Below, piece after piece: positions 41,038 to 43,255 of a stretch of DNA of 64,000 bases. Origin of the DNA: Galbibacter pacificus (GTDB lineage Bacteria; Bacteroidota; Bacteroidia; Flavobacteriales; Flavobacteriaceae); the NCBI RefSeq assembly GCF_029603165.1, contig NZ_JAQSVC010000003.1, positions 248,001-312,000 on the forward strand. Direction: 5' to 3'. Under the pieces are notes generated by a model. The model made no database searches. It was not told where the DNA came from and saw only the letters and a list, made by a program, of their open reading frames with translations. The position numbers and the translations under genes were made by a program. Position 1 is the stretch's first letter. Every line of letters starts with the position of its first letter.

Positions 41038-41622
41038 TTAAGCGTCTGCTTTCTTTTCTTCTTCAGCCTCTTCCGCAGCTTCTTCTGCAACGGGCTCTTG
41101 AGCTTCTGCTTCGGCCTCTGGCGCAGCTTCTTCTGCTACTTCTTCTTTGGCTTCGGCCGTAGCTTCTGCCTCGGCTTCAGTAGCCGCAGCTATACGCTTG
41201 GCATTAATTTCTTTTTCAGCTTCCAAAGTTTTTGCTTTTGCTTCTTCTTTAGCTTTCACTAAATCTTCTTTCTTAGCATCTACTTTTCCGGTTTTTTCTT
41301 CAACCCAAGCTTCAAATTTCTTTTGTGCTTCTTCTTCGGTTAAAGCTCCTTTTGCTACCCCACCTAACAAGTGGTGCTTCAACAAAACGCCTTTGTACGA
41401 TAGAATTCTTCTAGCGGTATCAGTTGGCTGGGCACCGTTCTGAAGCCATTTTACAGATCCGTCAACATCTAATTCAATTTGAGCCGGATTTGTTGTTGGA
41501 TTGTAAGTTCCTAGTTTTTCAAGAAACTTACCATCTCTTTTTGAGCGGGCATCTGCCGCCACTACCCAATAAAAAGGTTTTCCTTTTTTACCGTGTCTTT
41601 GTAATCTAATTTTTACTGGCAT
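41038..41622 (-). CDS. rpsP: 30S ribosomal protein S16 with long acidic C-terminal extension
   Basis: The S16 core covers about residues 1-85 (MPVKIRLQRHGKKGKPFYWVV, LGTYNP, GAQPTDTARRILS). The remaining 110 residues form an extension: first a Lys/Glu helical part (about 105-150), then an Ala/Glu low-complexity tail (AEEAAPEAEAEAQEP and similar). S16 elsewhere is usually 80-90 residues; Bacteroidota commonly carry such tails. First gene of the operon, with a TATATTTG box (41705-41698) about 76 bases upstream and a leader hairpin between. Confidence 0.97.
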   Translation of the reverse strand: MPVKIRLQRHGKKGKPFYWVVAADARSKRDGKFLEKLGTYNPTTNPAQIELDVDGSVKWLQNGAQPTDTARRILSYKGVLLKHHLLGGVAKGALTEEEAQKKFEAWVEEKTGKVDAKKEDLVKAKEEAKAKTLEAEKEINAKRIAAATEAEAEATAEAKEEVAEEAAPEAEAEAQEPVAEEAAEEAEEEKKADA

Positions 41623-41637
41623 AATCCATTAATTAGT

Positions 41638-41652
41638 GGGGTTCACGACCCC
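41638..41652 (-). promoter_or_regulatory. rpsP leader hairpin
   Basis: In the rpsP mRNA leader GGGGT-CGTGA-ACCCC folds into a five-pair stem 16 bases before the start codon. It is a candidate site for autogenous control of the ribosomal operon; this role is inference. Confidence 0.4.
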
Positions 41653-41697
41653 TATTATTAATAATAAAATTCGCCCGCCACTTGGCTAAAGCGGGTG

Positions 41698-41705: not shown

Positions 41706-41904
41706 CGCTATTTATTGTATACAACTAACTATTATTATAATTTTTTGTTTCAATAAACTGTGAATCAAAGACATGATTTTAAGTTTTGTGAGTTAACTAA
41801 ACTAATATTTATGATGAACAACGGATTTTACATGGAAGTTTTCGATATATTTTGTACTATTATAATAGTTCTCCCTTAAAAACATTCAAAAAATATTTGC
41901 TCAC

Positions 41905-42038
41905 ATTAAATTGTTTGCCTAGACAAAACTTGTCGAGCCCTGCTCGTCCCCCCTGTCTACAGTCATTAAACCCAACTTGGCACATGCTTGTGCTATGTTG
42001 ACTTTAGTTAAAAAAGCCCGAAATTCGGGCTTTTTTTA
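41905..42038 (+). ncRNA. candidate structured small RNA with intrinsic terminator
   Basis: Not recognised as a known RNA. Three consecutive structures are seen. (1) TAGACA (41920-41925) pairs with TGTCTA (41954-41959), enclosing a CGAGC-CCT-GCTCG hairpin. (2) CAAC-ttg-GCACA pairs with TGTGC-tat-GTTG around a TGCT loop (41973-42000), with a symmetric 3x3 internal loop. (3) A perfect terminator follows at 42011-42038. An alternative stem GACAA/TTGTC (41922-41934) competes with stem 1. A terminator placed between two divergently transcribed genes needs a transcript of its own. No start codon with a ribosome-binding site was found. The 5' end is a guess. Confidence 0.55.
42011..42038. terminator. 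intrinsic terminator between rpsP and hemW
   Basis: GCCCGAA-A-TTCGGGC (42017-42031) flanked by an A-run and a T-run, a strong bidirectional terminator. Neither neighbouring gene ends here, which points to the candidate small RNA as its client. Confidence 0.85.
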
Positions 42039-42103: not shown

Positions 42104-42111
42104 TACTTTTG
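42104..42111 (+). promoter_or_regulatory. hemW promoter, -7 box directly before ATG
   Basis: TACTTTTG followed by TATC and the ATG at 42116. The same four-base spacing occurs at panD and umuC, predicting a leaderless mRNA. Confidence 0.5.
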
Positions 42112-42115
42112 TATC

Positions 42116-43255
42116 ATGGCCGGAATTTATATCCATATACCCTTTTGTAAACAGGCATGCCATTATTGCGATTTTCATTTTTCGACTTCCATGAAAAAGA
42201 AAACCGAAATGATCGAGGCATTGGCCAAAGAAATTATTATAAGAAAAGAGGAGTTTTCAGAAAAAATTGAAACCATTTATTTTGGTGGTGGCACACCGAG
42301 CCTTCTTTTGGTTGATGAAATTAATTTTTTAATCGGCACCATTTATAATAATTACAAGGTTGATGCAAAACCGGAAATTACATTGGAAGCCAATCCAGAC
42401 GACCTGAACGGTGAAAAAATCAAGGCATTGGCCCAAACAAAAATAAACCGGTTGAGCATTGGCGTGCAATCTTTTTTTGAAGACGATTTAAAACTTATGA
42501 ACCGTGCCCATAATGCCAAGGAAGCACTTCGCTGTTTGGATAGTGCCACAAAATATTTTTCTAATATTTCTATTGATTTAATTTACGGCATTCAACACAT
42601 GTCTGTAGAAAAATGGAAAAAAAACATCCACACGGCCATGTCTTTCAATATTCCACATATTTCCAGTTATGCACTTACCGTCGAGCCCAAAACGGCTTTG
42701 GCAAAGTTTATAAAAACGGGCGTCATGCCCGATGTGGATGATGAATTGGCACAGCAACATTTCGAAATTCTTGTAGAAATGCTCGAAAAAAATGGTTTTG
42801 TACATTACGAGCTCTCCAACTTTGGCAAAGAAGGCTATTTTAGCAGGAACAATACTGCCTATTGGCTTGGCAAAAAATATATGGGGATTGGCCCTTCAGC
42901 ACATAGCTTTGATGGCAAAAACCGTAGCTGGAACATAAACAACAATACTAAGTACCTTAGCAGCATCCATAATGGCGTTTTGCCTAAAGAAACGGAAAGA
43001 CTATCGGTTACCGATCGGTACAACGAGGCTGTAATGACCGGTTTACGGACCATCTGGGGGATTTCCTTACATCAAATTGAAAACGAATATGGAAAACCCT
43101 ACAAAGATTATCTTTTAAAACAGGCAGCTAAGTATATTAAAGAAGAATTGTTAACTTTTACTGATAATAAACAGATCCTTAAAACCGGGAAAAAAGGAAA
43201 ATTCCTGGCCGACGGTATTGCTTCCGACTTATTTATGCTAAAAGATATTGCATAA
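42116..43255 (+). CDS. hemW: radical SAM heme chaperone HemW
   Basis: Heme chaperone related to coproporphyrinogen III oxidase HemN, 379 residues. Radical SAM cluster C11-x3-C15-x2-C18 (PFCKQACHYCDF), GGGTPSLL, LEANPDDL, RLSIGVQSF and a HemN C-terminal region (GIGPSAHSFDG). The three-Cys motif is followed by DFHF without the extra N-terminal residues of true HemN, which favours HemW over an oxygen-independent oxidase. First gene of a five-gene run with little or no spacing. Confidence 0.95.
   Translation: MAGIYIHIPFCKQACHYCDFHFSTSMKKKTEMIEALAKEIIIRKEEFSEKIETIYFGGGTPSLLLVDEINFLIGTIYNNYKVDAKPEITLEANPDDLNGEKIKALAQTKINRLSIGVQSFFEDDLKLMNRAHNAKEALRCLDSATKYFSNISIDLIYGIQHMSVEKWKKNIHTAMSFNIPHISSYALTVEPKTALAKFIKTGVMPDVDDELAQQHFEILVEMLEKNGFVHYELSNFGKEGYFSRNNTAYWLGKKYMGIGPSAHSFDGKNRSWNINNNTKYLSSIHNGVLPKETERLSVTDRYNEAVMTGLRTIWGISLHQIENEYGKPYKDYLLKQAAKYIKEELLTFTDNKQILKTGKKGKFLADGIASDLFMLKDIA

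Follow-up and report, generated by a model that had tools for sequence, protein, structure and literature searches.

The candidate feature analyzed here lies in a 64,000-nucleotide stretch of the Galbibacter pacificus genome (referred to below as the window), in the 493-base gap between two divergent genes that were named by NCBIfam: rpsP (S16), at 41038-41622 on the minus strand, and hemW, at 42116-43255 on the plus strand. The following features were placed between the two genes.

41628-41662, minus strand: rpsP leader, Rfam family S16-Flavobacteria (RF03138), 53.3 bits against a gathering score of 35.7; a known element, outside the candidate.
41705, minus strand: rpsP -7 box TATATTTG, found by letter scan.
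41785-41813, plus strand: upstream alternative promoter, TTTG at 41785, a spacer of 17 and TATTTATG at 41806-41813, matching 9 of 10 fixed positions.
41892-41899, plus strand: weaker alternative -7 box AATATTTG, matching 5 of the 6 fixed positions of TAnnTTTG; the start would be 41904.
41907-41914, plus strand: candidate -7 box TAAATTGT, of the form TAnnTTGY (motif SM5), with a predicted start at 41919.
41919-42037, plus strand: candidate small RNA of about 119 nt, both ends predicted; the minimum free energy (MFE) of 41919-42038 is -43.9 kcal/mol.
41920-41959, plus strand: stem-loop 1, with a TAGACA/TGTCTA outer helix and a CGAGC/GCTCG apical helix; 41905-41960 folded alone gives z -4.06.
41922-41934, plus strand: alternative hairpin pairing GACAA (41922-41926) with TTGTC (41930-41934), which cannot coexist with the outer helix of stem-loop 1.
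41965-42008, plus strand: stem-loop 2, with the pairings ATTAAA/TTTAGT, CAAC/GTTG and TGGCACA/TGTGCTA; 41960-42008 folded alone gives z -3.28.
42010-42037, plus strand: intrinsic terminator AAAAAAGCCCGAA-A-TTCGGGCTTTTTT(T), from inverted-repeat and fold evidence; its sequence would serve either strand.
42104-42111, plus strand: hemW -7 box TACTTTTG, with four bases between it and the ATG, hemW being predicted to be near-leaderless.

The terminator is an inverted repeat matching at 13 of 13 positions (42010-42022 against 42024-42036), followed by a T tail. Its base rate was estimated along the contig (C15, 677,581 bases) with one fixed rule of our own making and crude ORF-based gene calls of about 90 codons or more. 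By this rule, counted on both strands, the rpsP-hemW gap was the only one among 68 divergent gaps of at least 60 bases to hold such a structure. The main argument of the first-pass annotation, that a strong terminator sits between divergent genes and cannot be attributed to a protein-coding gene, holds because no second case was found in these 68 gaps. A generic terminator scanner omitted the rpsP-hemW terminator and reported stem-loop 2 in its place, since it expects a T run after the stem and here the stem runs into the T run.

When 41905-42038 was folded with the terminator included, the MFE had a z score of -7.30 and none of 200 dinucleotide shuffles was as good; with the terminator left out, z was -4.13, again with none of 200 shuffles as good. 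The plus strand folded better than the minus strand over 41905-42008, with z scores of -5.56 versus -2.58 in one run and -4.13 versus -2.92 in the other. We also scanned the gaps of at least 110 bases on the contig, using 30 shuffles per window and ranking only windows at or below -12 kcal/mol. The best window of the rpsP-hemW gap (41898-42001, without the terminator) ranked 12th of 199 gaps by z and second of 51 divergent gaps. The candidate fold is strong yet not unique, and other gaps of the contig fold as well or better. One divergent gap elsewhere on the contig (position 595017, plus strand) has a stronger fold (z -6.8) and no terminator by the same rule.

The six-pair stem described earlier as enclosing CGAGC-CCT-GCTCG is present in the predicted structure, where it forms the outer helix of stem-loop 1 (TAGACA at 41920-41925 with TGTCTA at 41954-41959, five of the six pairs having a pair probability of at least 0.9). 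The C-run on its 3' side (41948-41953) is mostly unpaired, with 41948 pairing at 0.6. The basal stem of stem-loop 2 also has six pairs (41965-41970 with 42003-42008), and the 28-base hairpin above it was recovered at 41973-42000; the symmetric 3x3 internal loop once assigned to this hairpin closes U-A and G-U pairs, leaving a 1x1 mismatch. The alternative GACAA/TTGTC stem does exist and is mutually exclusive with the first helix. The conformational switch that had been proposed from it fared worse: forcing the alternative stem costs 4.1 kcal/mol (-24.0 versus -28.1), and a two-state switch at equilibrium is for this reason unsupported. The stem may have a transient role during transcription.

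Promoters were sought with exact matches to two -7 motifs and with a sigma-A motif in which mismatches were allowed. The TAnnTTGY box at 41907 corresponds to motif SM5 as described for Flavobacterium psychrophilum (PMC9723704) and would put the first transcribed base immediately ahead of the first helix. This form occurs 44 times on the plus strand of the 64 kb (about 1 per 1,450 bases) and twice in the gap, at 41848 and 41907, and as a candidate promoter the box is suggestive only, with the use of SM5 in this genus taken as an assumption. The weaker box at 41892 was absent from a scan requiring a TTTG-like -33 element (3/4). From the upstream site at 41785/41806, transcription would start near 41818 and yield an RNA of about 220 nt; this match is likely due to chance, since the window has 156 sites with 9 of 10 positions, counting both strands. 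The gap contains no full sigma-A promoter box ahead of the candidate RNA, and a sigma-70-type scan of the surrounding 20 kb was at chance level (60 found versus 54.6 expected).

A TAnnTTTG box ends exactly four bases before the hemW ATG in all seven genomes of the genus that were searched, our own included (L010-L015, read by eye), and in our genome it is the sole plus-strand box of this form within the rpsP-hemW gap. In F. psychrophilum the -7 box is reported to occupy positions -12 to -5 (PMC9723704), and by this rule hemW transcription would begin at the A of its ATG. As a side observation, hemW seems to be leaderless across the genus, a class put at only 5.5% of mRNAs in the account of F. 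psychrophilum (PMC9723704). A 5' leader or attenuator of hemW was considered and rejected, given the box of its own that hemW has at the ATG in 7/7 genomes and the start predicted from it; with this promoter four bases before the ATG, the candidate RNA would not be the hemW leader.

Relatives of the candidate were searched for at several depths. In the six congeners, whose HemW proteins are 66 to 75% identical to that of our genome, it was found neither by DNA nor by structure model, once a model match in congener G005 had been rejected (see below). A DNA search of 60 relatives counted seven genomes, including our own, and the other six matched the terminator only (query positions 126-163). 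Among 397 genomes of the family (own included), a search at E up to 0.1 returned our genome and 24 weak matches in 22 genomes. Loci were available for 19 of these, and 18 were checked for stop-to-stop frames: 17 fell in frames of 196 to 821 codons and one in a 47-codon frame. Four of the 17 share the peptide VLGTQFNV, which we take to be FecR-like. The 19th match (L053) was discarded as a tandem repeat; the array there had prompted the idea of a CRISPR tracrRNA, which was dropped as well, the array being a 65-base tandem repeat of which the window holds no counterpart. Plasmids gave two DNA matches, both to the terminator only, phages gave no DNA match to the candidate, and viral contigs gave no match to a single 20-base exact pattern.

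The structure model (R1) was built from two copies of the one sequence, with the terminator excluded. In 299 family genomes (own included, and possibly overlapping with the 397 above), it recovered our genome alone at E 0.01 under strict filters. The match in G005 came from a search of 39 relatives at E up to 1 (E 0.016) and was rejected, as it runs antisense in what we recognize as the rpoB-rpoC gap. Matches in genomes G019 (E 0.26) and G042 (E 0.95) were taken as chance from their alignments. Around hemW relatives, 16 loci (L021-L036) gave no match at E up to 1; these are the 18 such loci less two nonflavobacterial ones. Stem-loop 2 is nearly palindromic, and for this reason the model hits the minus strand of the candidate as well.

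The reading that we favor, with moderate confidence, is that of a free-standing plus-strand small RNA (sRNA) gene that would be restricted to this species or to unsampled close relatives. Of the original proposal, the unannotated small RNA remains the best reading, with its orphan terminator, plus-strand fold, lack of coding signs and lack of an Rfam family; its possible identity as 6S RNA and the switch have not stood.

The surroundings of hemW in the congeners bear on the alternatives. rpsP was found in 4 of 23 hemW loci (L009, L014, L015 and L021); the others were uninformative about the gap because rpsP lay outside the upstream stretch that was fetched (mostly 1.5 or 3 kb). The distance between the two genes is 233 bases in G002 and 852 in G001. 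In G003 and G005, a gene for an FdhF/YdeP-like oxidoreductase lies between rpsP and hemW, directly upstream of the latter, and in G006 and G004 it lies upstream of hemW at 1.4 kb and 4.0 kb, respectively (loci compared, L040-L043). The gene of G002 is on another contig, G001 has a distant match only, and the match in our genome is 27% identical and sits in a longer frame. By gene order, then, the spot between rpsP and hemW is a site of gene turnover. The same terminator rule was applied to the rpsP-hemW regions of G001, G002, G003 and G005 and to the last 3 kb before hemW in G004 and G006, and the only terminator found was in G005, about 2.6 kb before hemW.

This remodeling of the locus would suit a terminator that acts purely as a transcription barrier, shielding hemW and the rpsP control region, with the hairpins either incidental or aiding termination. 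Such a barrier would block stray plus-strand transcription from behind the rpsP promoter as well as stray minus-strand transcription, and the structure has A runs and T runs on each flank, a symmetry by which, judged from sequence, it should work in both directions. However, the same rule detects no barrier of this kind in the remaining 67 divergent gaps of the contig or in the rpsP-hemW gaps of G002 and G001, and the z of -4.1 of the terminator-free part would be left unexplained. We regard this explanation as unlikely.

A terminator might also mark the end of a short mRNA. The gap has 16 listed stop-to-stop frames, of which 5 were run against Pfam and gave no match; the candidate is probably not a protein gene. 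A small peptide, possibly toxin-like, could nevertheless be encoded just ahead of it, in a 22-codon frame at 41811-41879 or from an inner ATG at 41832. The frame opens with ATG and stops at 41879, before the structured part, its C-terminal half is hydrophobic, and the promoter-like match at TTTG 41785 and TATTTATG 41806 (9/10) would direct a start near 41818, before the inner ATG. Against this, that match is one of 156 of equal score when both strands of the window are counted, no Pfam match was obtained for the 40-codon frame enclosing the peptide, and frames this short would be expected by chance in AT-rich sequence. The peptide has no relative in 98 other genomes, although 22 residues make a weak query. 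Taken together, a peptide mRNA seems quite improbable.

Marginally less credible still is a relic, in which the candidate would be the 3' end of a lost FdhF/YdeP-like oxidoreductase gene. Its appeal is that such a gene lies upstream of hemW in four congeners and has no close copy here, but no terminator separates the oxidoreductase gene from hemW in G003 or G005, and the candidate DNA matches those regions only in the rpsP leader, the hemW promoter and short chance words.

Known RNA families were searched with Rfam. At gathering scores, the scan of the window returned the S16 leader (RF03138) alone and no family over the candidate, and a lax scan of 421 bases (E up to 10) gave 21 matches, none of which came near its gathering score. 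This search, proposed as a check together with the first-pass annotation, leaves the candidate outside any known family and lends no support to the two identities suggested there: neither the 6S families nor the Flavo-1 motif is among the 21 matches, and the 6S-Flavo RNA of the genome (RF01685) is on contig C17 (91.8 bits, gathering score 85). The statement that it is not a tmRNA, RNase P RNA, SRP RNA or tRNA agrees with our results, as the first three are absent from the lax matches and the window contains no tRNA or tmRNA. A second 6S RNA or another known housekeeping RNA would be consistent with the size, the terminator and the internal loop, but it is extremely improbable with 6S-Flavo on C17 and no 6S, Flavo-1, tmRNA, RNase P or SRP RNA among the 21 matches.

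The candidate is best described as a plausible, unproven lineage-specific intergenic sRNA with putative transcription, function and targets. A candidate of this kind is to be expected, since in Bacteroides thetaiotaomicron, of 49 high-confidence intergenic sRNAs ending in terminators, 27 are described as strain specific (PMC7366714), and for F. psychrophilum 45 independent non-antisense transcripts, 18 of them strongly structured, are reported (PMC9723704). The same account counts against it in that those independent transcripts tend to be shared across the species, and for many of them homologues may exist elsewhere in the genus (PMC9723704). The absence of relatives from the genomes searched also counts against the candidate; such absence is common among bacterial sRNAs. 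One of the Rfp sRNAs described there, Rfp18, is likewise an independent small flavobacterial transcript with a strong predicted fold and a third stem-loop mentioned; unlike the candidate, it is conserved in its genus and expressed, and its deletion affects protease mRNAs (PMC9723704). The likeness to Rfp18 is one of description. GibS of B. thetaiotaomicron (145 nt) is also intergenic, terminator ended and of similar size, in a host without an obvious Hfq, but its start, expression and targets have been established (PMC7366714), whereas the candidate is known from sequence alone. The 6S-Flavo RNA (RF01685) shares the character of a small structured flavobacterial RNA, but its model does not match the candidate and its copy is elsewhere. 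In the open-access literature, nothing relevant was found on small RNAs of Joostella or on rpsP and hemW together with a small RNA.

If the free-standing sRNA gene is real, transcription would start near 41919 (or, alternatively, at 41904 or 41818) and stop at 42037 in the terminator; the transcript would measure about 120 nt and form three stem-loops, or reach about 220 nt from the upstream promoter. The terminator would also keep this transcript from running into hemW. The product could act in trans as a base-pairing regulator; the likeliest pairing region is the C-rich strand (41948-41953) in the internal loop of stem-loop 1, or the short single-stranded stretches adjoining it. Regulation would presumably proceed without Hfq, since no match to Hfq was found in our genome (5 of 14 control genomes matched). 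Putative duplexes were scanned against 570 crude gene starts on one contig, and 60 mononucleotide shuffles of the RNA were used as controls. The best duplex (-36.6 kcal/mol) was no better than those of the shuffled RNAs (mean, -37.1 kcal/mol; standard deviation, 2.6), 57% of which reached a value at least as low, and for this reason no target is named. The fuller scenario of a species-specific, Hfq-independent sRNA with an SM5-like promoter, born in a remodeled spot flanked by two housekeeping genes and silencing G-rich translation starts through its C-rich loop strand, is speculative and, taken as a whole, rather improbable.

If transcribed, the candidate would join the lineage-specific sRNAs of a phylum in which few such RNAs have been investigated and for which no partner protein is known; it would alter no concept. 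The result also suggests that, in this genome, sRNA genes could be flagged by orphan terminators between divergent genes, a rare feature judging from the single case in 68 gaps on one contig.

Two other terminator-like hairpins were noticed on the same contig outside the window (158058-158085 and 161241-161267, locus L075). They are near-palindromic, of the CCCTGTAAAA..TTTTACAGGG type, and lie antisense to tandem genes; they could represent a small repeat family or antisense terminators.
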